Shown here: positions 1,170 to 13,347 of the stretch, one piece after another
Layout of the letters: every line of letters starts with the position of its first letter
Position numbering within the stretch: position 1 is the first letter of the stretch
From: Streptomyces akebiae
GTDB taxonomy: Bacteria > Actinomycetota > Actinomycetes > Streptomycetales > Streptomycetaceae
Assembly (NCBI RefSeq): GCF_019599145.1
Contig: NZ_CP080647.1
Location: 3,596,001 to 3,660,000 of the forward strand
Length of the DNA stretch: 64,000 bases
Direction: 5' to 3'
Notes under the pieces: generated by a model
What the model saw: only the letters and a program-made list of their open reading frames with translations
Database searches by the model: none
Told to the model about the DNA's origin: nothing
Made by a program: the position numbers and the translations under genes

Positions 1170-1340
1170 GTGCTGAGAGAAACGAGCGGCCCCGAGTACG
1201 TCTCGGGCCTGGTGGACATCACCGACCTGCCCATGGACGCGCTGGAGGACCTGCCGGACACGGTCCTCGCTTCGGTGCTCCACGATGTGCGATTCCCGTC
1301 GGGCGAGAGCTTCGCCGCGTTCGCGTCGGCGCTTCTCTGA
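1170..1340 (+). CDS. fxsA: FxsA, FxSxx-COOH-type RiPP precursor
   Basis: Ribosomally made peptide substrate of the downstream radical SAM enzyme. From the GTG at 1170 the product is 56 residues: an acidic leader (SGLVDITDLPMDALEDLP, then VLHDVRFPSGES) and a C-terminus ending FAAFASALL. The Phe-Ala-Ser triplet matches the F-x-S site at which FxsB-type enzymes are known to join Phe to the Ser beta carbon as a three-residue cyclophane. The FASALL end leaves three residues after Ser where the family name implies two. The start is chosen because GAGGAG at 1151-1156 sits 13 nt upstream; a longer GTG start at 1101 would add 23 mostly basic residues and has no good ribosome site. Identity rests on the tail plus the linked fxsC, fxsT and fxsB genes. 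Confidence 0.88.
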   Translation: MLRETSGPEYVSGLVDITDLPMDALEDLPDTVLASVLHDVRFPSGESFAAFASALL

Positions 1341-1502
1341 CACGCCGGCATCCCCCTCCTCGCTGCCTTTCGGCCAACTACGATCCGTTCCCCCGTGGTG
1401 AGTTGAGCACCGGCCCAGCGGGGTATCACGTTGCCACGCACGTATCCCGGCTCATAGGCGCGGTGAAACGCCTGCGGCCGGATACGACGGCCGGGGGGTG
1501 CT

Positions 1503-2804
1503 TTGGAGCGAGAGCCGTACTTTTTCCTCAGCTACGCGCGCCGGGACGACCGGGGTAGCGCCTTCGTGCGTCGTTTCTACGACGATCTGTTGGCGGAGCT
1601 GGGCCGCCTGGGTGCGGACTGCAGCGGACAACAGCCGTTCCTCGACATCGAGCGGATCGGCCTGGGCATGGACTGGGAGAGCGCGCTCGGCAGCGAGATC
1701 GGGCACTGTCGGGCCCTGGTGGCCCTCTGCTCGCCCGCTTATGTCAACAGTCCCTACTGCGGCAAGGAATGGGCCGCCTTCGAATCCCGGCTGCTGAGGT
1801 ATCGCGAGCAGACCGACATCGAGGTACCGGCGCTCATACCGGTCCTGTGGGTCCCCCTGCACAACGCGATGCCGCCGGAGATCAGCAAGTACCAGTACTT
1901 CGAACCGCCGATGGGTCAGGAGTACCTGGAGCAGGGGCTGATGGGACTGTTGCGTTCCGCTCCGGGCGGCCGCGCCTACCGCGCCGTCCTGGAACTCGTC
2001 GCGAAGCGGGTGCACCACGTCGCCGATCTCTTCCGGCTGCCCCGCGCGCATGGCCTCGACCTGGGGACCGTGCGCAGCCCCTTCGAAGGGCGGGAACCCA
2101 CGGGCCCGGGGAGACGCACCACGGGTCACGTCCGCGTGTTCATCGCCGCGGGCGTCACCGATCCCCTGCCCACGGGCCGGCAGCGGCACGAGTACTACGG
2201 GCCCTCACCGCTCGACTGGACGCCGTACCATCCGCCGATCCATCCCACCGTGGCCTACCGGGCTCAGCGTGTGATCATCGACGAGGGGTGCACGAGCAGC
2301 CTGGAAGTCGTCGACCGCGGCCTCGGCGAGAAGCTCGACGAGGCCATGCACAACAACCAGACATCCGTGCTGCTGGTCGACGCGTGGGCCGCCCGGGACA
2401 GCCAGTACCGCGCTCCGCTGTCCGACTACGACCGGCAGAACCATCCGGTCACCGGCGTACTCGTCCCGTGTCACGAGACGGACGAGGAATCCGTCGACGA
2501 GAAGCTGTGGACCGATCTCCAGCAGGTCTTCAGACGCAACTGGATGCGGCGCAACGACCCCTACGACCCGCTGTTCCAGGTCCAGGTCGAAAGACAACGG
2601 TTCGAGAGCAGGCTGGCCCGCATGGTGGTGGTCGCCCAGAACCGTCTCATGGAGCAGGCCGTGCCACGCCGACTGCCCGCCGGGCCGTCGGCACCGCCCA
2701 TGCCGGGACTCAACGTCCCGTACACGCCGCCCCCCAGCAGCGACGATCCGACCGAGCCGCCGGGTCGTACGCCCCCGCAGAAGGATCAGGACGATGAGCT
2801 CTGA
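1503..2804 (+). CDS. fxsC: FxsC, TIR-like protein of the FxSxx system
   Basis: A 433-residue protein. Residues 1-150 form a TIR-type fold: FFLSYARRDD at the N-terminus (beta A), FLDIERIG, and ALCSPAYVNSPYCGKEW near residues 78-94, where the Glu after Lys occupies the place of the catalytic/NADase Glu of TIR domains. The remainder (about 190-375) is a second domain specific to FxsC proteins, and the last 45 residues are Pro-rich and disordered-looking. The TTG start at 1503 follows a GGGGGG run by about 5 nt and is the first available start. The stop overlaps fxsT by 11 bases, suggesting translational coupling. Whether it hydrolyses NAD or acts as an adaptor for the TIR region of FxsT is unknown. 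Confidence 0.85.
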   Translation: MEREPYFFLSYARRDDRGSAFVRRFYDDLLAELGRLGADCSGQQPFLDIERIGLGMDWESALGSEIGHCRALVALCSPAYVNSPYCGKEWAAFESRLLRYREQTDIEVPALIPVLWVPLHNAMPPEISKYQYFEPPMGQEYLEQGLMGLLRSAPGGRAYRAVLELVAKRVHHVADLFRLPRAHGLDLGTVRSPFEGREPTGPGRRTTGHVRVFIAAGVTDPLPTGRQRHEYYGPSPLDWTPYHPPIHPTVAYRAQRVIIDEGCTSSLEVVDRGLGEKLDEAMHNNQTSVLLVDAWAARDSQYRAPLSDYDRQNHPVTGVLVPCHETDEESVDEKLWTDLQQVFRRNWMRRNDPYDPLFQVQVERQRFESRLARMVVVAQNRLMEQAVPRRLPAGPSAPPMPGLNVPYTPPPSSDDPTEPPGRTPPQKDQDDEL

Positions 2805-5800
2805 GACCGAGGCTCAGGACACCGGCCGGATAGTCACCTTCTACTCGTACAAGGGTGGCACGGGCCGCACGATGGCCCTCGTCAACGTCGGTTGGATCAT
2901 GGCCAGTAACGGCAAGCGGGTGCTCCTGGTCGACTGGGACCTCGAGGCCCCCGGACTGCACCGGTATCTGCGCCCCTTCCTCCTCGACCCGAAGCTGCGG
3001 GACACCGACGGCCTGATCAACATGGTGAACTCCTTCGTCGGACACGTGATACGGCCCGGGGAACCGCTGGAACCCGGCGCCGGGACCACCGTGATGAGTG
3101 ACGACGAACTGCGTTCCCACGCTCGGCTCGGCCCTCGCACCACCGGCCTGGACCTGCGCTTCCCCGCGGGCGGCCGGCTCGACTTCCTGCCCGCCGGGCG
3201 GATGTCCCCCTCGTACTCCGCAGACGTCACCAGCTTCAACTGGCGCGCGTTCTACGAGCGTCTGGGTGGCGGCTCCTTCCTTCAGGTGCTGCGGGAGGAG
3301 ATGAAGGCCTCGTACGACTACGTCCTCCTCGACAGCCGCACCGGCGTCAGCGACATCTCGGGGATCTGCACCACCGTCATGCCGGACGTCCTCGTCGACG
3401 GGTTCGTGCTGAACCACCAGAGCATCGAAGGCGGCCTGGACATCGCGCAGTCGGTGGCCTCGGAGGTGCGCCACCCCGTACGCATCCTCCCCGTCCCCAT
3501 GCGGGTCGAGGACGGCGAACAGGAGCTGCTCGAATGGGGCCGGGACATGGCGCGTGCCGAGTTCGGACCGTTCCTCTCCTGGCTGGACGAATCGGAGCAG
3601 GACCAGTACTGGGGAGAGGTCGAGGTCCCCTACAAGAAGTACTACGCCTACGCCGAGATCCCGGCCACGGTCCGCGACCGGCCCTCCCAGCCGGGCAACC
3701 TGCTCGCGGCGTTCGAGCGGCTCACCTCGTGGATCACCGACGGCCGGGTACGGTCCCTCGTCCCTCATCCGGAGGAGGAGCGGCAGCGGATGCGTGCCGC
3801 CTACCTCGACCCCAGGACGTCGTGGCCGCGCATCCACGTCAGCTACGCCTCGGCCGACCGGATGTGGGCGGAATGGATCGCGGCCAGGCTGGAGGTCATC
3901 GGATACCAGGTCTCGCTGCACAGCACCGCCGAACCGGGCACGGGGACGTTGCCCGAGGTCGCCCCCGTACTGCAGGGGCGCGGACGGATGCTCGCCCTGC
4001 TCTCCCCCGAGTACATGGTGCAGCGGCGTGCACAGGAGGTCTGGAAGCAGTTGCGAGGTCTTGAGAGCGCCGACAGAGCACTGCTGGCGGTGCGCGTCCA
4101 GGAGTTCGAGACCACTGCCCGGGCCCCCTTCCGGGGACGGTTCGCCGCCGACCTCACCCACTGCACCCCCGAGGAGGCGGAGGCCCAGCTGCTGGCGGTC
4201 GTCGGCCCGGTCCGCCGCGCCCGCGTCCCGGGCAGCGTCGCACCGGCTCCCGACTCACCCGCCCCGCCGTTTCCCGGCACGTCCCCCTCGGTACAGCGCG
4301 TTCCCTCCAGGAACGTGTCCTTCACCGGCCGGGGCTTTCTGCTGGAGCGGCTGCGCAACGGCTTCACCTCCGGCAACACGACACAGGTCCTCTACGGACT
4401 GGGCGGGGTAGGAAAGACGCAAATAGCTCAGGAATACGCACATCGCTTCAAAGCGGCCTATGACGTGGTCTGGTGGGTCACCGCCGCGCAACCCGGTCTG
4501 ATCCGCCCCGCCCTTGCCGATCTCGCGCCGCGTCTCGGCCTGGAGGTCGGCGAGGACGTGGGGAGCACCGCGGAGTCGGTGCTCAGGGCGTTGCGACGGG
4601 GGGAGCCCTTCGACCGCTGGCTCCTGGTCTACGACAACGCCGGACGTCCCGAACAGCTCGCGGCGTTCATCCCGACCGGGCCGCCCGGTGGGCACGTCCT
4701 CCTCACGTCCCGCGACCGGACCTGGGTGAACGACGCGGGACTGGTCGAGGTCGAGGTGTTCCAGCGTCAGGAGAGCACCGACCTGCTGCACCGCCTCAAC
4801 ACCGGGCTCACGGCCTCCGACGCCGAGGAGGTGGCCAGGGAACTGGGCGACCTGCCGCTGGCCGTCGCCCAGGCCGCTGTCTGGCTGAGCGAGAGCAGTA
4901 TGCCGGTGGCCACCTATCTGGCACTGCTCAAGGACCGCCTCACCGAGGTGTTGCAGACGACCCAGTTACCCGAGCGGGACTATCCCCGCTCGGCCGCGGC
5001 GACCTGGAACCTGGCGGTGGACGAACTGCGCCGGGTCAACCAGGCGGCGGCCGAGATGCTGGAGATCTGCTCCTTCTTCGGACCCGACCCCATTCCGTTG
5101 CGACTCCTCTACAGCAAGGCCGTCACCAAGGCGCTGACCCTGCCGTCGGGTGAGCCGCGCGACGAGATGGCGGTCGCCCAACTGGTGCGTACGATCAATC
5201 GGTTCGGCCTGGCCAAGAGCGATCAGAGCAGCGCGACCCTCACGGTCCACCGGCTGGTGCAGGCGGTCATCCGCGACCAGGTCGACGACGCGCGCAAACC
5301 ACAGGCCCGGGGTGTGGTGCACGCCGCGCTGGTGGACGCCGATCCGGGCGACCCCGACGTCCCCGCGGACTGGGATCGTTACGCGGAACTGCTGCCCCAT
5401 CTGCGGCCCAGCCTGGCGGCCGAGAGCCCGGATCCCGAAGTGCGCAAGTGGGTCACCGATTCCGTGCGTTATCTGTGGAAACGCGGCCTGCGCGCAGACG
5501 GCCAGGAGCTCGCGGAACGCACACTGGCCCGCTGGAAGACGTGCGGCATCGGCCACCCCGACGACCCCCAGACCCTGATGCTGCGCATCCAGCTCGGCAA
5601 CGTGCTTCGCTCCAGGGGGCGGCTGGAGAAGGCGTACGAGATCGACCGGGACACCTTCGAGCGGTTCCACCGCACCAAGGGGCCGGACTACGCGCACACG
5701 CTCGCGGCCGCCGGGAACGTCGCCGCCGACCTGCGTGCGCTGGGCCGCTACGTGGAGGCCCGGGAACTCGACCGCCAGACCCTCGACGGAGCCCTGCGGA

Positions 5801-6765
5801 CCCTGGGAGACGACCACCCGCGCACCCTCATGTACACCAGCAACCTGGGTATGTCGGAGTACCTCGCGGGTGATCGCCGGGCGGCCCTCGATCTCCACGA
5901 ACTCGCCTACCGACAGCAGAGCGAGGCGCGCGGCCGGGACAACTTCTACGCCCTGCTGTTCGCCAGCAACTACGCTCGGGACCTGCGCGAGACGGGGAGT
6001 CTGAGGGAGGCCCTGGAGCTGCTGCGCAACACCGTCCAGTTGTACGAACAGACCCTCGGCGACGGTCACATGGAGACGCTGAGGACGCGCCGCAACCTCG
6101 CCGTGGCCCTGCGCCGGGCCGGTGACTACGAACAGGCGAGGAAGATCGACGAGGACATCCACTCCCGTTACGTCGAGGCGCACGGCACGGAGCACACGGA
6201 CACGCTCGCCGCGGCCTGCGGTCTCGCCTGTGACCTGGCCGCGCTCGGGGAGCCGCAGCGGGCACGGCAGCTGGCCGAGCGGGCGATGGACCGCTACAGC
6301 ACCTACCTGGGGCCGGAACACCCCGTCACGCTCGCCTGTGCCACCAACCTATCGGTCTACCGGCGGTTGACCGGCAGTGCGGACTCCGCATGCGAGCTGT
6401 CCCACATGGCTCTGCACCAGATGTCACGGATCGTCGGGGAGAGTCACCCGTACAGCCTCAGCTGCATGATCAATCACGCGAACGACCTCGCTCTGGCCGG
6501 CAACCTGGAACAGGCGGTCGAGTGGGACCGGCGTGCGCGGCGGTACTTCCTCGACATCCTGGGCCCGGACCACTACGACGCCATCAGCATCACCTCCAAC
6601 CTGGGCCTGAGCCTGCGGGCGATCGGCCGTACGGAGGAGGCAGGGCAGTTGGCGGAGGAGGCGGCGCGCAGGGCCCGGGACAAGCTGGGCGAGGCACACC
6701 CCACGACCCGGACGATACTGTCCGGAAAACGACTCGACTCCGACATCGAACCACCGACCACCTGA
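2794..6765 (+). CDS. fxsT: FxsT, ParA-like/TIR/NB-ARC/TPR protein of the FxSxx system
   Basis: A 1323-residue multidomain protein. Residues 12-60: deviant Walker A KGGTGRT (K20) and VLLVDWDLEAPG, as in MinD/ParA-type ATPases. Residues about 347-470: TIR-like domain (IHVSYASADRMWAEW, then LLSPEYMVQRRAQEVW). Residues about 530-800: STAND/NB-ARC ATPase with Walker A YGLGGVGKTQ, Walker B RWLLVYDNAG near 605-615, LLTSRD sensor and LGDLPLA motif. Residues about 915-1310: repeated 42-residue TPR units of the kinesin-light-chain type (repeats of R-x-L-G, H-P-x-T-L). This is the layout of signal-sensing NLR-like proteins: TPR sensing, STAND oligomerisation, TIR output. ATG at 2794 lies inside fxsC. 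The name follows the published FxSxx system; the role is not established experimentally as far as I know. Confidence 0.88.
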   Translation: MSSETEAQDTGRIVTFYSYKGGTGRTMALVNVGWIMASNGKRVLLVDWDLEAPGLHRYLRPFLLDPKLRDTDGLINMVNSFVGHVIRPGEPLEPGAGTTVMSDDELRSHARLGPRTTGLDLRFPAGGRLDFLPAGRMSPSYSADVTSFNWRAFYERLGGGSFLQVLREEMKASYDYVLLDSRTGVSDISGICTTVMPDVLVDGFVLNHQSIEGGLDIAQSVASEVRHPVRILPVPMRVEDGEQELLEWGRDMARAEFGPFLSWLDESEQDQYWGEVEVPYKKYYAYAEIPATVRDRPSQPGNLLAAFERLTSWITDGRVRSLVPHPEEERQRMRAAYLDPRTSWPRIHVSYASADRMWAEWIAARLEVIGYQVSLHSTAEPGTGTLPEVAPVLQGRGRMLALLSPEYMVQRRAQEVWKQLRGLESADRALLAVRVQEFETTARAPFRGRFAADLTHCTPEEAEAQLLAVVGPVRRARVPGSVAPAPDSPAPPFPGTSPSVQRVPSRNVSFTGRGFLLERLRNGFTSGNTTQVLYGLGGVGKTQIAQEYAHRFKAAYDVVWWVTAAQPGLIRPALADLAPRLGLEVGEDVGSTAESVLRALRRGEPFDRWLLVYDNAGRPEQLAAFIPTGPPGGHVLLTSRDRTWVNDAGLVEVEVFQRQESTDLLHRLNTGLTASDAEEVARELGDLPLAVAQAAVWLSESSMPVATYLALLKDRLTEVLQTTQLPERDYPRSAAATWNLAVDELRRVNQAAAEMLEICSFFGPDPIPLRLLYSKAVTKALTLPSGEPRDEMAVAQLVRTINRFGLAKSDQSSATLTVHRLVQAVIRDQVDDARKPQARGVVHAALVDADPGDPDVPADWDRYAELLPHLRPSLAAESPDPEVRKWVTDSVRYLWKRGLRADGQELAERTLARWKTCGIGHPDDPQTLMLRIQLGNVLRSRGRLEKAYEIDRDTFERFHRTKGPDYAHTLAAAGNVAADLRALGRYVEARELDRQTLDGALRTLGDDHPRTLMYTSNLGMSEYLAGDRRAALDLHELAYRQQSEARGRDNFYALLFASNYARDLRETGSLREALELLRNTVQLYEQTLGDGHMETLRTRRNLAVALRRAGDYEQARKIDEDIHSRYVEAHGTEHTDTLAAACGLACDLAALGEPQRARQLAERAMDRYSTYLGPEHPVTLACATNLSVYRRLTGSADSACELSHMALHQMSRIVGESHPYSLSCMINHANDLALAGNLEQAVEWDRRARRYFLDILGPDHYDAISITSNLGLSLRAIGRTEEAGQLAEEAARRARDKLGEAHPTTRTILSGKRLDSDIEPPTT

Positions 6766-6855
6766 TCAGCGGACGTCATCCGCCCCAAGGGCCACAGGGC
6801 GCCCACCGGGTACCTATGATGGCCTCTTTCCTCCGCCGCCGTACCAGAGCGATCG

Positions 6856-8118
6856 ATGCCGATGTCCGCCACCAACGCCCCGCCCGCCGCACCGGACAGC
6901 GGGACGGAGTCCGTGCCCTTCCGGCAGTTCCTGCTGAAGATCCACAGCCGGTGCAACCTGGCCTGTACGTACTGCTACATGTACGAGGCGGCCGACCAGA
7001 GTTGGCGGCAACGTCCCAGGAGCATGGCGCCGGCGACGGTTCGGCGGGCGGCGCGGCTGATGGCCGAACACGCCGCGGAGCACGGACTGTCCGAGGTGCA
7101 CGTGGTGTTGCACGGCGGCGAGCCGCTGCTGGTCGGACCGGAGCACCTGGAAAGGCTCCTCGGGACGGTCGCGGACGCCCTGGACGGGATCGCCGCACCT
7201 CGCTTCACCCTGCAGACCAACGGCATCCGGCTCGCCGAGGACCCGCGGCTGCTCCCCGTTCTCGACGCTCACGGGGTCCGGATCGGGGTGAGCCTGGACG
7301 GCACCCCGGCCGGGCACGACCGGCACCGGAGGCGGGCCGACGGGCGGGGCAGTCACGCCGCCACCACCCGCGCGCTCGAACTGCTGACGGACCCGGCCCA
7401 CCGGCACCTGTTCGCCGGCCTGTTGTGCGTGATCGACCCCACCACCGACCCGCTGGAGACGTACGACGCGCTCCTGCGGTTCGCTCCGCCCCGGCTGGAT
7501 CTCTTACTCCCGCACGGGACCTGGCAGGCTCCGCCCCCCGGGCTCGCCGCACGGACGTCCCCGCCGTCGATGCCACCCGCGCCGGGCGCGACCCCGGGTG
7601 CCACCCCGTACGCCGACTGGCTGCGCCCGGTCTTCGACCGCTGGTACGGCGCCCCGAGCCGGGAGACCGGCATCCGCCTGTTCGAGGAGATCATGGTGCT
7701 GCTGCTCGGCGGTACCGCCCGCAGCGAGGTCGTCGGTCTCACACCCATCGACCTCGTCGTCGTGGAGACCGACGGGGCGATCGAGCAGGCCGACTCGCTC
7801 AAGGTGAGCTATCCCGGGGCGCCCGAGACCGGGCTGCACGTGTTGCGCGACACCTTCGCCGACGCCGCCGCGCATCCCGCCTTCCGCGCCCGGCAGCGCG
7901 GGTTGAATGGGCTCGGGCCGGTCTGCCGCTCCTGCTCCCGCTCCCGCGTGTGCGGCGGCGGCCTGTACGCCCACAGATACTCGCCCGGAGCCACCCCGGT
8001 CTTCTCGGCTCCCTCCGTGTACTGCGACGACCTGGCGGTACTGGTCGACCACATCGGAACCCGGCTGCGCCGGGACGTCGCCGCGCTGACCGCGCCCCGG
8101 CGGAAGGCGTCCCGATGA
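6856..8118 (+). CDS. fxsB: FxsB, radical SAM/SPASM cyclophane-forming maturase
   Basis: A 420-residue radical SAM enzyme. C33-x3-C37-x2-C40 binds the SAM [4Fe-4S] cluster; HGGEPLL (about 90-96), QTNG and VSLDG are the usual radical SAM strand motifs. A SPASM-type region near the C-terminus supplies C357, C360, C366 and C390 for auxiliary clusters. FxsB enzymes crosslink the Phe and Ser of F-x-S in FxsA by a C-C bond. In many genomes, from memory, FxsB carries a C-terminal metallohydrolase-like extension; here that extension is instead the start of the next, separate gene. Start at ATG 6856 (MPMSATN); a second ATG two codons on is possible. Follows fxsT by 90 bases; its stop overlaps the next start (ATGA). 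Confidence 0.92.
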   Translation: MPMSATNAPPAAPDSGTESVPFRQFLLKIHSRCNLACTYCYMYEAADQSWRQRPRSMAPATVRRAARLMAEHAAEHGLSEVHVVLHGGEPLLVGPEHLERLLGTVADALDGIAAPRFTLQTNGIRLAEDPRLLPVLDAHGVRIGVSLDGTPAGHDRHRRRADGRGSHAATTRALELLTDPAHRHLFAGLLCVIDPTTDPLETYDALLRFAPPRLDLLLPHGTWQAPPPGLAARTSPPSMPPAPGATPGATPYADWLRPVFDRWYGAPSRETGIRLFEEIMVLLLGGTARSEVVGLTPIDLVVVETDGAIEQADSLKVSYPGAPETGLHVLRDTFADAAAHPAFRARQRGLNGLGPVCRSCSRSRVCGGGLYAHRYSPGATPVFSAPSVYCDDLAVLVDHIGTRLRRDVAALTAPRRKASR

Positions 8119-9911
8119 GAGCGGCGACGGGGCAGGGGGCCGGTGTCGCACCACGCCCCCGCCAGGATCTCGTCCCGCACACCGTGCCCGCCCTCGTCTT
8201 CAAGGCCCTGGCCCGCGCCCGCGGCGGTGCGACCGCCGTGGACCTGTTGCGGAACGGGCAACTGAGCAAACGCATGCTGATGGTGCGGGCCCTGCGCCGG
8301 GCGGCGGACGGGCATCCGGAGGAGGGCATCGCCGAAGCGGCGTACCGCGCCCTGGTCGAACTGAACCGACGGGACCGCGCGACATGGCACGAGGTCATGC
8401 TGCACCCCTACCTGGACGAGGGACTGACCCGGGCCCTCACCGCGCTGGACCGCGGACTGCCCACTGATCTGCGGTGGTTGGAACAACTGACGGCGGATCC
8501 GGGTCGGCGGGCATGGCATCGCGTCGACGCCCTCTGTGACGGCACGGCACTCGAACTGCGGCTCGCCGACCACGGCCCCTTCCGTGAGGCGCACGGTCAC
8601 GAACTCGCCGACCCGCTCACCGCCGGGCAGGCACAGGAGTGGACACAAGCGCTGCGTGCCGCCTGGACCGTGCTCGTGCGGCGGCACCCCTGGCACGCGC
8701 AGACCATCGCCGCCGGCCTGACCACCGTGGTCCCGCTGCGCCCCAACCCCGATGGCACCGAGGTGAGTTCGGCGGCCCGGCGGGCCTTCGGTGCCGTCGC
8801 CTCCTCCCTCCCCGACGACCCGGTGCTCCTCGCACTGACCCTCGTGCACGAGTTTCTGCACGTCCAACTCGGTGCACTGCTCGACCTGTTGCCGCTGCAC
8901 GGCCCACCGACGGACGCCCGCTACCACGCCCCGTGGCGGCCCGATCCGCGACCGGCCGGAGCGCTGCTGCAGGGGACGTACGCGCATCTGGGCGTGACGG
9001 ACTTCTGGCGCACCGAAGTCGCCTCCGGGACGGGAAACGAGCGTGCCCGACGCGAGTACGACACCTGGCGCGAGCACACCGACACCGCAGCCGGCACGCT
9101 CCTCGAAAGCGGCGAACTCCTGCCCGCGGGCGAGCGGTTCGTGACGGAACTGCGTGAGGCCGTACGTCGCCGGTCCGTGCCCGCGGGGACGCTGCGAGGC
9201 AGAGCGGACCTCGTGCATGACCTTCGCGGACTGGGGCTCCGGGCCGGCGACACCGTCCTCGTGCATTCCGCCCTGAGTACGGTCGGGCCCGTCTCCAACG
9301 GCGCCGAGACCATGGTGAGCGCGCTGTCCGAAGTCCTCGGACCCGGCGGGACGCTCGTGATGTACACCCCGGCACCCGACGACGCCCGCGCCCGGACGCC
9401 CGCGCCCGCCGCGTACACCGCACCGGGTTTCGGCGTCGGTGTCCTGGCCGAGACGGTACGGGCCCGGCCCGCCGCCCTGCGCAGCGCTCATCCGCGGAGT
9501 TCCTTCACGGCGCTGGGCGCCCAGGCGGACTACATCACCTCCGACCACTCCCCCGACTGCTCCCTGGGCGAGGAGTCACCGCTGGGCAGACTGGAGAAGC
9601 TCGGCGCCCGGGTGCTGTTGCTGGGGATCGGTTTCGAGGCGTGCACCGCGTTCCACCTGGCGGAGTACCGCGTCCCGAGCCGTCTCGCGGGCCTGCCCGA
9701 AGGCGCCGACCCACACCTGGACTCCTCCCCGTTCGCAGCGCTGGGGGCCGCCTTCGAGGCGACCGGGGCGGTGCGCTCCGGCCGGGTCGGCCATGCCCAC
9801 TGCCGCCTGTTCGACTTCGCTGACGCCGTCGCGTTCGCCGTGGGGCGGCTGGCGGACAGGGCCGACGGGGCAGACAGGGCCGACGGGGCCGACGGGGCCG
9901 ACAGAGAGTGA
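8115..9911 (+). CDS. HExxH peptide-modification domain fused to AAC(3)-like acyltransferase
   Basis: A 598-residue two-domain protein. Residues 1-350 match the HExxH domain seen beside or fused to FxsB; the metal motif H245-E-F-L-H249 is intact, so it need not be an inactive form. Relatives of this domain have been described as alpha-ketoglutarate-dependent peptide beta-hydroxylases. Residues about 358-585 are an aminoglycoside-3-N-acetyltransferase fold (VLVHSALSTVG, GPGGTLVMYT, AHPRSSFTALG, LLLGIGFEACTAFHLAE), presumably acetyl-CoA dependent and more likely acting on the peptide than on a drug. The tail is a short RADGADRADGADGA repeat. ATG 8115 overlaps the fxsB stop. The open frame extends far upstream but that part is only the shadow of fxsT and fxsB. 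Confidence 0.85.
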   Translation: MRAATGQGAGVAPRPRQDLVPHTVPALVFKALARARGGATAVDLLRNGQLSKRMLMVRALRRAADGHPEEGIAEAAYRALVELNRRDRATWHEVMLHPYLDEGLTRALTALDRGLPTDLRWLEQLTADPGRRAWHRVDALCDGTALELRLADHGPFREAHGHELADPLTAGQAQEWTQALRAAWTVLVRRHPWHAQTIAAGLTTVVPLRPNPDGTEVSSAARRAFGAVASSLPDDPVLLALTLVHEFLHVQLGALLDLLPLHGPPTDARYHAPWRPDPRPAGALLQGTYAHLGVTDFWRTEVASGTGNERARREYDTWREHTDTAAGTLLESGELLPAGERFVTELREAVRRRSVPAGTLRGRADLVHDLRGLGLRAGDTVLVHSALSTVGPVSNGAETMVSALSEVLGPGGTLVMYTPAPDDARARTPAPAAYTAPGFGVGVLAETVRARPAALRSAHPRSSFTALGAQADYITSDHSPDCSLGEESPLGRLEKLGARVLLLGIGFEACTAFHLAEYRVPSRLAGLPEGADPHLDSSPFAALGAAFEATGAVRSGRVGHAHCRLFDFADAVAFAVGRLADRADGADRADGADGADRE

Positions 9912-9930
9912 TCGCCACGAAGAAGTCAGG

Positions 9931-10020
9931 GGCCCCACCCCGAGGAGTCAGGACCCGGCTGACCTGTGCTTCGCAAGGTCAGCGGCGTGGTGGCGCGTCA
10001 CCCGCTGCACGTTGAAGCGG
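9931..10020. repeat. Left copy of imperfect direct repeat (candidate att remnant)
   Basis: About 90 bases that align, with one gap and roughly two-thirds identity, to 28401-28491 in the same orientation. Best-conserved blocks are GAGTCAG, GACCTG and TTGAAGCGG; the last is the antisense of the final ychF codons (R-F-N). The two copies enclose the 18.5 kb accessory island. Confidence 0.5.
9958..9983. terminator. Hairpin after the fxs operon
   Basis: GCTGACCT(G)TGC, loop TTC, then GCAAGGTCAGC form an 11-bp stem with one bulge, 46 bases after the last fxs-operon stop codon. No T tract follows, as is common in Streptomyces. It could serve transcripts from either side. Confidence 0.6.
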
Positions 10021-10231
10021 AGCGCGGAGACAGACTCCTCCGGGTCCTCGACCGCAGGGCGATCCCGTTCCGCATGATGTCCCGACAAACATGGTGTCCA
10101 GGAGCCCCATACCAACCGGGCGAGGCTCCCTGCCGAGCGGGTTGTCGCCGGAGGCCCCGGCCGGCAGGCGGCGGAAGGCCACGCGGATCTCGTTGAAGTG
10201 CCCAAGTGCGTACATGCGTAGGTGCGTGCTC

Positions 10232-10933
10232 CTACTTCGCCAGCTGGGCGTACATGGCTTCCAGGTCGGCGGAGAGCTGCGACTTGACCCAGCGGGTGGT
10301 GTCGTCGGCCAGCACCTCGTGTGCTCCCGCCTCGATGCCGTCGAGTGCGGCCAAGGCGATGTCGCGGGGGTCCGCTTTGGGCGCGTCGACGCCCGAGGTC
10401 ATGTCGGTGTCCACGTAGGCCATGTGGAGCCCGGTCACCGCGATGCCGCGCGGCTGCAGCTCCAGGCGCAGGGAGTTGGTCTGCGACCACAAAGCGGCCT
10501 TGGAGGCGCCGTAGGGCGTGCCGTCGGCCAGCCAGGACAGAGCAGAGTGGGCGTTGAGGATGTGACCCCCGCCGTTGCGCTCGATGACCGGCACGAAGGC
10601 CCGGGTGACCAGCAGCGGCCCGTAGAAGTTGGTCTCCAGATCCCGGCGCACATCCTCCATCGGGGAGTTGAGGTACGAAGCGCGGACGGAGGCCCCGGCG
10701 TTGTTGATCAGGATGGTGACGTCCTGGGCCTGCTCGGCGGCGGCTGCCACGGATGCCGGGTCGGTGACCTCGAGCGCCAGCGGAACGGCATCGGGGTGGG
10801 TCACCGTGCGCGGGTCACGGGCCGTGGCATAGACCTTGCCTGCCCCACGCGCATAGAGCTCCTCGACCAGCATCTTGCCGATGCCACGGCTGCCTCCGGT
10901 GACGAAGACGCCGGCGCCCTTGATTGCTGTCAT
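10232..10933 (-). CDS. Short-chain dehydrogenase/reductase
   Basis: A 233-residue classical SDR: cofactor loop TGGSRGIG near the N-terminus (NADP/NAD binding), INNAG motif, Ser of the HSALSWL segment and the catalytic Y-x3-K in YGASK. Start at ATG 10933 because GGAGGT lies 5 nt upstream; four more in-frame codons upstream lack a better site. Two palindromic operators (10954-10990) sit directly upstream, so the same TetR-type regulator that serves the other SDR genes nearby probably represses it. It is only distantly similar to the SDR pair at 13.4-14.2 and 20.3-21.1 kb. Substrate unknown. Confidence 0.9.
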   Translation of the reverse strand: MTAIKGAGVFVTGGSRGIGKMLVEELYARGAGKVYATARDPRTVTHPDAVPLALEVTDPASVAAAAEQAQDVTILINNAGASVRASYLNSPMEDVRRDLETNFYGPLLVTRAFVPVIERNGGGHILNAHSALSWLADGTPYGASKAALWSQTNSLRLELQPRGIAVTGLHMAYVDTDMTSGVDAPKADPRDIALAALDGIEAGAHEVLADDTTRWVKSQLSADLEAMYAQLAK

Positions 10934-10953
10934 GACTACCTCCACAAAGATGA

Positions 10954-10990
10954 AAACCGATCGGTTTCACCACCGTAAACCGATCGGTTT
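10954..10990. promoter_or_regulatory. Paired TetR-type operators before SDR
   Basis: Two perfect palindromes AAACCGATCGGTTT at 10954-10967 and 10977-10990, centres 23 bp apart, immediately upstream of the SDR start. The same palindrome occurs at four other places in the island, one of them just before a tetR gene. Confidence 0.8.
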
Positions 10991-11652
10991 TGTGATGCAA
11001 GTCGGTCGGAACTCAGGCTGCAGGGGCTGGCTGGCCTCGTGTCCATCGGCGAAGTCCGTACGCGCCGGGCGCAGGCCGGCGAAGCCGCGAGCCCGCCGAC
11101 AGGGATCGACGTGACCTGGCTGGACCTCAGGCGGGGTTCGGCGGAATGACGTGAGGAGTGGCGTGCCGTACGGCTCGGTGTCGCCTACGTGCTCGGCCGC
11201 GCGTTCCGAGCCGGCCTGGGGTCGGCGACCAAGGGCGGCCAACTGCCGGCGGCGCAAGGACAGCCCAGGTACGGCGGGCAGGTCGGCGAGGCGCGCACGA
11301 CAGGGAAGTCAGGCCCGACGGCGCCGACGGCCTTTGTGGCGACGCGACCTCGCGACGAGAGGCCCCGTCCGCGGGGCCCGCGGACGGGGCACGCATTCTG
11401 CGTGAGCTGGAGCCCACGTATAGGAGTCGCGGGATGATCCGGCCCCTGTGACGGCCCACCTTGTGTCGCCTGTCGCCGAGCGCCGCGACGCCGCCTGCAG
11501 GCGCCCCGGTCGCTGGTGCGTTGGGGGGGAAACGAAGACCGGAGGGTGACGATCAATCCCACGACTGTGGCGGCTCAACGGACGTAGCGCTGAGGATCAC
11601 CCTGTGCGAGATGAAATCGCCCGTGTCCGCCCATGTGGATCTCCGGCGCTTC
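10991..11652. other. 660-base region without a recognisable gene
   Basis: Short open frames on both strands show no motif, ribosome site or hydrophobic pattern I can support. The one clear structure is the perfect 14-bp inverted repeat at 11362-11390. The region may be the remains of the TetR partner expected upstream of the SDR, but I see no HTH-like sequence. Confidence 0.5.
11362..11390. repeat. Perfect 14-bp inverted repeat
   Basis: Arms GCCCCGTCCGCGGG and CCCGCGGACGGGGC separated by one base. Lies 263 bases beyond the stop of the CocE-type gene, with no T tract; could be a strong terminator for that operon or a recombination/attachment structure. Confidence 0.55.
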
Positions 11653-13347
11653 TTATGGGACCGGAACCACCGGCAGGACGATGCGGGAGGGTCGGGCGGG
11701 GTCGTGGAAGACCTGCTGCCGGGCCACTCGGGCCGTGGTCGCGATCTCCTCGGGTTCGCCCGTGTTGAGATTGCGGTCCCAGCGGGGGAAGTTGCTGGAG
11801 GTGACCTGGACCCGTATGCGGTGTCCCGCGCGGAAGACGATGCTGGTCGACCACAGGTCCACGACGTGCTCGGCCGCCTCGCCCGGTGTCGCCGCGCGTA
11901 CCCGCACGATGCCGTCGGCCACATTACGGGAGACGCCCATCTCATCGACGTCGCACAGGCGGGCCACCCAGTCGGTCGAGGGTCCGTCCGTGGCCGCGAA
12001 GAGCACCGCCCGGACCCGGCCCGTCACCTCCACGTCATCTTCAAGCGGTTCGGTGGTGAAGACCAGAACGTCCTTGCGCGCCTCCACGGCCGTTTGGTCG
12101 AGCGGCCCGGGACGGAACTCGTCGGTGTTCAGGAGCCCGCCACCCATGAGGAGCGCGCCGCCGGCGGTCGGCACCGGATCCATGGGGTCGTAGGTGAACT
12201 CCTCGGCCTGCTCGGCGGTGGACGGCGGCTCCTGCGTCAGGCGTCCGTCGGCGCGCAGGTGGAAGTCCGTGTCCACGGCGCGCGACAGGGGCCATTCCGT
12301 CTCCTCGCGCCACTGGTTGATCCCCATGACGAACAGCAGCACCTCGCCCGTGTCCGGCTCCGGAGCCTCGCCGTCGCCGATCGTGCGCTGGAACCAGTCG
12401 AACTGCAGGTCGTGCAGGCGTCCGCGCATGCCCATGTAGTCGGAGTTCGCGGCGAACCCGAAGTTGACGTCACCGACCACGTGCCGCCAGTTGGTGTGCG
12501 CCCACGGGCCCATGACCAGCGTGGCGGACCGGCCGGCGCGGCGCATGGCGGTGAAGTTGTCGAGCGTGCCCTGGCCGAAGGTGTCGAACCAGCCGCCGAC
12601 CTGGAAGGTGGGCAGATCGATCTCGCCGTGCCGGCCCGCGACGGTGCAGGACGCCGCCCACTCGGGCTCGCGCCGGGAACGCTCGTGGCCCAGCTCGGGC
12701 AGGTCGTGCCGGGCGAACGCGGGAAACCGCCCGGCGGGCAGCTCCCCGTAACCGCCGCTCGCCAGGCCGTCGAAATCCTGCACGAGCCCGGTGATGCCGT
12801 TCACGAGCCCGTCGAGGTCGGTGGAGTGACGGCGCATCAGGGTGTCGGCACCCTGCAGGAGCGACCAGGGCACGCTGAGGCCGAGCTCGATCGCACCGCC
12901 ACGCGTCCACAGCCCGTCGTCCGGGTCGGACCAGGTGATCATCGGCGCGATGGCCTTCAGCTCCGGCGGCTTCGACAGCGCCGCCATCCACTGGGTGTTG
13001 CCGAAGTAACTGCCGCCGATCATGCCGACGGAGCCGTTGGAGCCGGGGAGGGTGGCGGCCCACCGTACGGTGTCGTAACCGTCGCTCTCCTCATACGTGA
13101 ACGGCTCCCACTCCCCCTCGGAGGCGAACCGGCCACGGGTGTCCTGGAGGACCACCATGAATCCGTGCCTGGCCGCCGCCAGAGGATCGAGTACGACGCC
13201 CATCATGGGCGTCTGCTTGCCGTACGGCAGCCGGCTCAGCAGCACCGGCCACGGTCCCGTACCACCGGGCCGGTAGACATCCGCGCGCAGCACCGTGCCC
13301 TCACGCATCTCGGCCGGAACGTCGAGCTCGATCTGGATCTCCGTCAT
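11653..13347 (-). CDS. CocE/NonD-family hydrolase (X-Pro peptidase/esterase type)
   Basis: A 564-residue serine hydrolase of the CocE/peptidase S15 type. The alpha/beta-hydrolase core occupies about residues 10-330, with the nucleophile elbow G-G-S113-Y inside MIGGSYFGNTQW and an oxyanion-side motif LPYGKQTP. The C-terminal 230 residues form the jelly-roll X-Pro domain (TGRVRAVLFAATDGPSTDW, then RIRVQVTSSNFPRWDRN). It should cleave esters or amides such as acyl esters. Start ATG 13347 follows AAGGGAA at a normal distance. The SDR upstream ends 52 bases before it, so both are probably one transcript from the operator-bearing promoter at 14237-14275. Confidence 0.92.
   Translation of the reverse strand: MTEIQIELDVPAEMREGTVLRADVYRPGGTGPWPVLLSRLPYGKQTPMMGVVLDPLAAARHGFMVVLQDTRGRFASEGEWEPFTYEESDGYDTVRWAATLPGSNGSVGMIGGSYFGNTQWMAALSKPPELKAIAPMITWSDPDDGLWTRGGAIELGLSVPWSLLQGADTLMRRHSTDLDGLVNGITGLVQDFDGLASGGYGELPAGRFPAFARHDLPELGHERSRREPEWAASCTVAGRHGEIDLPTFQVGGWFDTFGQGTLDNFTAMRRAGRSATLVMGPWAHTNWRHVVGDVNFGFAANSDYMGMRGRLHDLQFDWFQRTIGDGEAPEPDTGEVLLFVMGINQWREETEWPLSRAVDTDFHLRADGRLTQEPPSTAEQAEEFTYDPMDPVPTAGGALLMGGGLLNTDEFRPGPLDQTAVEARKDVLVFTTEPLEDDVEVTGRVRAVLFAATDGPSTDWVARLCDVDEMGVSRNVADGIVRVRAATPGEAAEHVVDLWSTSIVFRAGHRIRVQVTSSNFPRWDRNLNTGEPEEIATTARVARQQVFHDPARPSRIVLPVVPVP

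Follow-up and report, generated by a model that had tools for sequence, protein, structure and literature searches.

The 64,000-nucleotide stretch of Streptomyces akebiae DNA analysed here (NZ_CP080647.1, positions 3,596,001 to 3,660,000; the window) carries at 1170-9911 an fxs locus of five genes, all on the + strand: fxsA for a short precursor peptide, fxsC, fxsT, fxsB and a gene for a HExxH-AAC(3) fusion protein. We propose that this locus encodes an intracellular switch, resembling the nucleotide-binding leucine-rich-repeat receptors (NLRs), that is coupled to its own modified peptide. FxsT would be both sensor and switch through its NB-ARC ATPase and TPR array; its TIR domain would have lost the catalytic glutamate and become a docking surface. 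FxsC would be a separate catalytic TIR protein, predicted to consume nicotinamide adenine dinucleotide (NAD) and recruited through TIR-TIR contact upon FxsT assembly. FxsB would cross-link FxsA near its C-terminus; the HExxH domain would then probably hydroxylate the peptide, and the AAC(3) domain might acetylate it. FxsA, probably intracellular, would set the state of FxsT, held possibly more via its leader than its core. We give this reading as a whole, with FxsT as an NLR-like switch whose TIR is dead, FxsC as its enzyme and FxsA as a regulatory peptide, a probability of roughly 0.45.

The evidence lies in gene composition, synteny, residue conservation and gene fusions. An original prediction made from this DNA had named the five co-directional fxs genes and a link between peptide maturation and TIR/STAND (signal transduction ATPases with numerous domains) proteins. 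Both are confirmed, as all five genes score above the curated cut-offs of their own NCBIfam models, with the AAC(3) part above its Pfam cut-off, and the genes recur as one conserved unit across loci. The FxsB, FxsC, FxSxx_TPR and HExxH models of the NCBIfam FxSxx-COOH system of ribosomally synthesized and post-translationally modified peptides (RiPPs) all match in the window, with scores far beyond chance.

The two TIR domains and the FxsT switch

FxsC consists of a TIR domain (residues ~4-176) and a C-terminal alpha/beta domain (~208-385), which was weighed as a possible second TIR against other flavodoxin-like folds. Its TIR fold carries an alpha-C glutamate (Glu89, motif CGKEW), at a site that we take to be that of the catalytic Glu of NAD-cleaving TIRs, and Glu is found there in 84/89 aligned FxsC proteins; FxsC thus combines the fold and the residue by which NAD-consuming TIRs are recognised. 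Structures of RUN1 E100A and SARM1 are among the fold matches. FxsT comprises a KGGVGR-type ATPase domain (residues 12-220), a TIR_2 domain (347-466), an NB-ARC domain (532-694) and TPRs (Pfam TPR_12). At the matching column of its TIR, occupied in the window by Val416 before a Trp, none of 81 FxsT proteins has Glu and eleven other residues are found, so the alpha-C glutamate of NAD-consuming TIRs is lacking throughout. The column pairing was checked with hhalign, which gives a probability of 90.5 for FxsC against FxsT and 99.3 for FxsT against a related type that occurs without FxsC. This type comprises FxsB-linked Streptomyces TIR-STAND-TPR proteins with no FxsC nearby, and it keeps the Glu in 22/25 (the presence of FxsB and absence of FxsC near these 25 proteins were checked by hand, and 20 FxsC-less proteins were chosen from among the matches listed, by a frame length near 1000 amino acids). 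The simplest reading of these counts is that FxsC may have assumed catalysis and the FxsT TIR turned into a docking domain. We infer NAD hydrolysis by FxsC, docking by FxsT and a role in cell death or defence.

The switch motifs of FxsT are invariant in the same alignment, which holds 81 sequences longer than 1150 amino acids, shorter ones having been dropped: Walker A Lys541, Walker B Asp614, the GLPL-like Pro688 and the MHD-like His819 are each present in 81/81, the motif set of a STAND/NLR-like NTPase. The P-loop of the ParA-like domain reads KGGTGRT, with Arg instead of the usual Lys in 71/71 aligned proteins. The TIR domains had been predicted to be the output, with their glutamates and the STAND Walker A residue conserved; the Walker A Lys and the FxsC Glu are conserved, and output by a TIR holds at most for FxsC, the FxsT TIR being without its Glu.

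In an FxsC paralogue from the S. akebiae genome (L024:10652-12530; FxsC at 10652-11989) Gln occupies the position of the TIR Glu, and a 178-amino-acid TIR-like open reading frame (ORF) lies beside it at 11994-12530.

Linkage of the fxs genes across genomes

Synteny was followed in a set of 86 loci, consisting of 80 FxsC loci from one FxsC pattern scan (80 kept of 94 confirmed), five from the S. akebiae genome (four with FxsC) and the window; FxsC is present by design and many of the loci are close relatives. Genes were called in each locus and compared with profiles made for this analysis. Of the 83 loci with a whole FxsC, 82 have FxsT as the very next gene in the same orientation, and the sole exception (L042) ends at a contig edge. 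Of 87 FxsC-FxsT pairs 74 overlap or are at most 50 bases apart, 53 of them overlapping. At the thresholds used FxsB is found in 78/86 loci and HExxH in 60/86; three of the eight loci without FxsB are at contig ends (L042, L056, L084).

Gene fusions point in the same direction. In three Kitasatospora loci (L076-L078) the FxsC TIR is fused to the TIR-STAND-TPR of FxsT in one protein of 1180-1191 amino acids. Six Streptomyces loci (L179-L184) have a protein of 945-1514 amino acids that ends in a TIR and the FxsC C-terminal module, with no FxsA or FxsB in view. The neighbours of the fusion gene in L180 code for proteins of the VMAP-M2 (227 bits) and AAA types (AAA_5 33.7 bits; bpMoxR below cut-off), and those in L179 and L181-L184 are similar in length. 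According to Kaur et al. (2020, PMC7159879), the end of the vWA component is where effectors sit, and FxsC therefore resembles an effector module. In L185 (3818-8702) an FxsC module terminates a protein of 1289 amino acids, and a separate ParA-like gene (341 amino acids) comes next. L124 (4179-16419) and the similar L125 have FxsC, FxsT and a HExxH gene with no FxsB above cut-off, adjoined by a TIR-domain protein of 1036-1046 amino acids; that of L124 has two TIR_2 matches and EAD2.

The S. akebiae genome (10.5 Mb) holds five FxSxx_TPR and seven FxsB genes above cut-off, five FxsC genes, and five fxs loci counting the window. L023 has two FxsB and no detected HExxH, L024 and L026 have an FxsB-HExxH fusion, and L027 has FxsB and a separate AAC(3). 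The FxsA tails of the four other loci are FESAL, FQSSL, FQSSV and FNSSI, next to FASALL in the window. At a sixth locus (L025:6272-10554) an FxsB above cut-off (9385-10554) lies by a 922-amino-acid protein with a weak STAND match, and no FxsC or FxsA was detected there.

Among 148 genomes of the class FxsB is above cut-off in 25 (37 genes), FxSxx_TPR in at least 35 and FxsC in 10 (16 genes), the FxsT numbers being lower bounds as six candidates were scored per genome. FxSxx_TPR lies within ~10 kb of at least 30 of the 37 FxsB genes (coordinates read by hand, six of the 30 being from S. akebiae itself) and adjoins 15/16 FxsC genes; FxsB lies within 10 kb of 13/16. In 150 Streptomyces genomes FxSxx_TPR is above cut-off in 139, taken from among the matches listed, FxsB in 94 and FxsC in 54. 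FxsB lies within 12 kb of 62/75 FxsC genes there, and 83/146 FxsB genes have no FxsC at that distance (Fisher test odds 14.8, which ignores relatedness; pieces of one FxsC were counted once). The 13 Streptomyces FxsC genes without FxsB comprise seven module fusions, two on short contigs of genome G278 and four FxsC-FxsT pairs. From these linkage counts FxsB and the STAND-TPR protein are the more constant pair, and FxsC is one of several partners. The expectation that fxsA, fxsC and fxsT would accompany fxsB in other genomes is thus upheld in most places for FxsA (see below) and FxsT and falls short for FxsC; a few FxsC-FxsT pairs also have neither FxsA nor FxsB in view.

FxsA, its maturation enzymes and the locus in the window

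FxsA scores 42 bits with TIGR04268 (cut-off 28, E 7.5e-11), measured on a longer ORF at 1101-1340, in which profile positions 1-44 of 44 align to residues 38-78 of 79; the window peptide is also recovered in a genome search with this model. Across loci FxS-type tails are enriched near the cores, with 73 of 3506 ORF tails near them and 20 of 5755 far from them. A tail profile finds FxsA in 80/96 loci with FxsB and in 4/21 without (117 loci, with 20 loci, L159-L178, omitted from the count; L072 and L127 are probably the same record, so that one locus is probably counted twice). The profile was built from 52 seeds taken out of these very loci by tail motif, almost all of them from loci with FxsB; the window tail is probably one of the seeds, and recovering it does not therefore count as an independent test. 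The four loci in which FxsA is found without FxsB include two cut contigs and two marginal cases.

The tail in the window extends one residue beyond the FxSxx-COOH form, as in 9/61 FxsA peptides including this one. Two Frankia loci (L104:9246-9476 and L108:9316-9585) have FxsA-like tails, GFTSSAGFNSSLSAP and GFNSSLAFTSALSAL, in which the FxS motif occurs twice and which possibly receive two cross-links. In three Micromonospora loci (tail ends at L082:18453, L083:18749 and L094:9120) the tail is AGWNSAM, in which Trp replaces Phe.

How FxsA would act on FxsT was approached by exploratory Mantel distance tests on 39 unambiguous loci, thinned to 22, with further series of 15-30 loci; their p-values tend low and are uncorrected for the number of tests. 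Over 15-30 loci, variation in the core goes with FxsB (partial r 0.44-0.62) but shows no such relation to the TPR region (r -0.21 to 0.00), whereas the leader covaries with the TPR region (r 0.20-0.43, p 0.001-0.036) and with FxsB (r 0.16-0.30, p 0.001-0.106). At face value the TPR region would track the leader rather than the core. The original prediction was that the modified peptide might be a ligand or inhibitor sensed by the TPR/STAND part of FxsT. In its direct form the TPR array would bind the modified C-terminal core, with release or modification as the trigger. TPR grooves read C-terminal peptides, and the aromatic residue of the motif (F or W) lies exactly five residues from the C-terminus in 46 of the 61 FxsA peptides; of the other 15, nine (among them the window) have a distance of 6, one has 7, four have 8 and one has 13. 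Given this variation and the pattern of covariation, direct core binding seems improbable. We infer peptide binding by FxsT, and retention of FxsA in the cell, as parts of the switch proposed here.

The closest solved relative of FxsB is ChlB (9gm3, E 1.3e-65, residues 24-406 aligned), and this kinship, with the family score of 450 bits, points to a cyclophane-type radical SAM/SPASM maturase, predicted to make a Phe-Ser cross-link in FxsA. The HEFLH motif and 150 bits with TIGR04267 place the HExxH domain among the alpha-ketoglutarate (aKG)-HExxH peptide beta-hydroxylases; its solved relatives are 22nu_A (5.6e-49) and, weakly, ChlH (1.9e-4). A role as leader protease was considered for this domain and provisionally set aside, as the TIGR04267 family is now named aKG beta-hydroxylase. 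In PMC12636437 a radical-SAM-fused HExxH relative is reported to hydroxylate, and two other HExxH enzymes to cleave the backbone. The AAC(3) part is related to the solved YokD (2nyg) and is likely to provide an extra tailoring step; NCBIfam AAC(3) models match the fusion protein below their cut-offs. AAC(3) is found in 37/86 loci, fused to HExxH in 10 and as its own gene in 27, and is therefore a recurrent member and no oddity of the window.

No exporter recurs in the locus flanks, judged from the 25 commonest of 132 families among 91 genes (91 of 113 listed genes, 53 loci; one nearest gene on either side for the window), with ABC_tran in 2/91. Because these loci showed no recurring protease or exporter dedicated to the peptide, FxsA probably stays in the cell. 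The same flanks bear on two further explanations. In one, the mature peptide is a cell-killing toxin that FxsT and FxsC control or protect against, the TIR/STAND proteins being regulator or immunity and not response. The peptide and maturation genes do share presence and absence, and "peptide toxin or signal" is the wording of Kaur et al., but the listed flank families lack a recurrent exporter, and FxsC modules ending large proteins with no FxsA or FxsB in view suit an effector better than an immunity protein; we consider a toxin unlikely. In the other, the product is a signal or antibiotic for secretion, and the TIR/STAND proteins regulate its production in the manner of STAND regulators. 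The maturases have RiPP enzymes (ChlB, ChlH) as their closest structures, and bacterial STAND NTPases have been studied mostly as transcriptional regulators (PMC7159879). Neither FxsC nor FxsT has a DNA-binding domain (Pfam, E 0.01), however, and with ABC_tran so rare among the flanking genes this explanation appears less probable still.

Several points weigh against the proposed switch. The Glu is absent in 5/89 FxsC proteins, one of them the L024 paralogue (CGRQW), and the Glu contrast may stem from one or few ancestral changes; a single ancestral loss would give the same counts, and the sequences compared include close relatives. Compared directly, the TIRs of FxsC and of the FxsC-less type align with an hhalign probability of 0.2, though the same Glu and Trp are paired. 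A sequence search of solved structures with the FxsC profile gave none at E 0.01, the FxsC TIR part alone matched nothing up to E 10 but four lipase sequences, and Foldseek gave no match for FxsC at E 0.001; FxsC is assigned a TIR from Pfam, NCBIfam and the fold alignment by VIA. The three fusion proteins scanned yielded no vWA domain, and the effector position of the FxsC module is for that reason drawn by analogy. L075, L078, L098 and L186-L189 have an FxsC-FxsT pair or fusion but no FxsA or FxsB in view, so the peptide is not needed everywhere. The commonest flank family, alpha/beta hydrolases (13/91 genes), which Hydrolase_4 (serine aminopeptidase S33) matches as well, may contain a protease. 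Finally, the leader-FxsB and leader-TPR signals fade on thinning, and the leader also gives p 0.048 with the FxsC TIR at n=15.

Positions of the locus features are listed in Table 1. The genes had been described as overlapping, which is correct for fxsC/fxsT (11 bases) and fxsB/HExxH (4 bases, ATGA); 162 bases lie between fxsA and fxsC, and 90 between fxsT and fxsB. The left edge of the window lies within a gene for a pyridoxal phosphate-dependent enzyme (PF00291). Among the matches listed the nearest FxsC, at 94% identity, is named from Streptomyces europaeiscabiei. PADLOC called no defence system at the locus; its matches of FxsT residues 5-63 to PDC-M28B (E 2.4e-20) and of FxsB to viperin models (E 2.9e-9) cover a shared fold only and were rejected.

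Table 1. Features of the fxs locus, in window coordinates
Feature	Position	Strand	Details
fxsA precursor peptide	1170..1340	+	56 amino acids (aa), GTG start, C-terminus ESFAAFASALL; TIGR04268
fxsC	1503..2804	+	433 aa, TTG start; NF040588 190.9 bits, TIGR04276 178.6 bits
FxsC Glu89 codon, alpha-C TIR glutamate	1767..1769	+	motif YCGKEW; Glu in 84/89 aligned FxsC
fxsT	2794..6765	+	1323 aa; ParA-like (KGGTGRT)-TIR-NB-ARC-TPR; NF040586 974 bits (cut-off 300), NF047398 127 bits
FxsT TIR domain	3832..4191	+	Val416 (4039-4041) at column of FxsC Glu89; hhalign column match
FxsT NB-ARC domain	4387..4875	+	PF00931 E 1.6e-8; Walker A Lys541, Walker B Asp614
fxsB, radical SAM/SPASM cyclophane-type maturase	6856..8118	+	420 aa; TIGR04269 450 bits (cut-off 370)
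HExxH-AAC(3) fusion	8115..9911	+	598 aa; TIGR04267 150 bits (cut-off 40); PF02522 191 bits (cut-off 25)
HEFLH motif, hydroxylase domain	8847..8861	+	gene sequence, numbering via structural-relative alignment

Comparison with known systems

The cluster type is already described and the general idea is published: the standalone FxSxx systems of Kaur et al. (PMC7159879) comprise an FxSxx peptide, proposed as toxin or signal, a radical SAM/SPASM enzyme, a HExxH protein and an AP-ATPase/TPR protein with an inactive MinD/ParA-like domain, and a TIR is stated there for the VMAP-linked FxSxx type. FxsT in the window corresponds to that protein, with NB-ARC, TPR and a ParA-like domain predicted to be inactive from its Arg. 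The original prediction had held the role to be undescribed, which this precedent contradicts; since Kaur et al. propose the peptide as toxin or signal, its idea is in fact close to theirs. A search of open PMC papers, with subscription papers outside it, found the link between FxSxx peptides and TIR/STAND proteins discussed, among the papers listed, only in PMC7159879; PMC8195603, PMC12734244 and PMC8618054 came up with related words.

Differences from that account concern several components. Kaur et al. took the HExxH protein for a peptide-cleaving metallopeptidase, whereas its family is now named hydroxylase. A whole-word search of the main text returns neither FxsC, AAC nor acetyl, the acetyltransferase there being GCN5-like. 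Relative to the standalone type, the window adds FxsC with its Glu-bearing TIR and the AAC(3) domain. The division of roles between FxsC and FxsT, FxsC modules as C-terminal parts of large proteins, AAC(3) as a component and the presence of five parallel loci in one genome are additions in that they were not found in section 24 of PMC7159879 and the passages searched.

The window matches all five members of the NCBIfam FxsA/FxsB/FxsC/FxSxx_TPR/mod_HExxH set, and departs from it in that FxsB and HExxH are separate proteins with HExxH fused to AAC(3), as in 10/86 loci. ChlB and ChlH (9gm3, 8s5f; Morishita et al. 2024, via PMC12636437) provide a homologous maturase and HExxH domain, with FxsA as the substrate in the window; the passages of PMC12636437 consulted mention no TIR/STAND partner.

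If the proposed switch is correct, it joins two rarely meeting fields, radical SAM peptide chemistry and NLR-like signalling, and the comparison yields predictions at the level of residues: FxsC Glu89 would be needed, the FxsT TIR would be non-catalytic, FxsC and FxsT would be in contact, and FxsA would be kept in the cell. A more specific version, which we regard as rather unlikely, has FxsT as a bacterial NLR gated by a RiPP that is never secreted: the TPR array would hold full-length FxsA by its leader, the cross-link state of the tail would report cell intactness, and a change of state would let the dead FxsT TIR gather the catalytic TIR of FxsC. The five pairs in one cell would then be separate sensors.

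SPARTA TIR-APAZ, SARM1 and the plant TIR-NLRs (RUN1, RPP1) are the known TIR systems with which the locus is best compared. Unlike these, the window has its Glu-bearing TIR and its NB-ARC protein as separate genes, the NB-ARC protein has a TIR of its own without the Glu, and the unit also contains a peptide made by a maturase.

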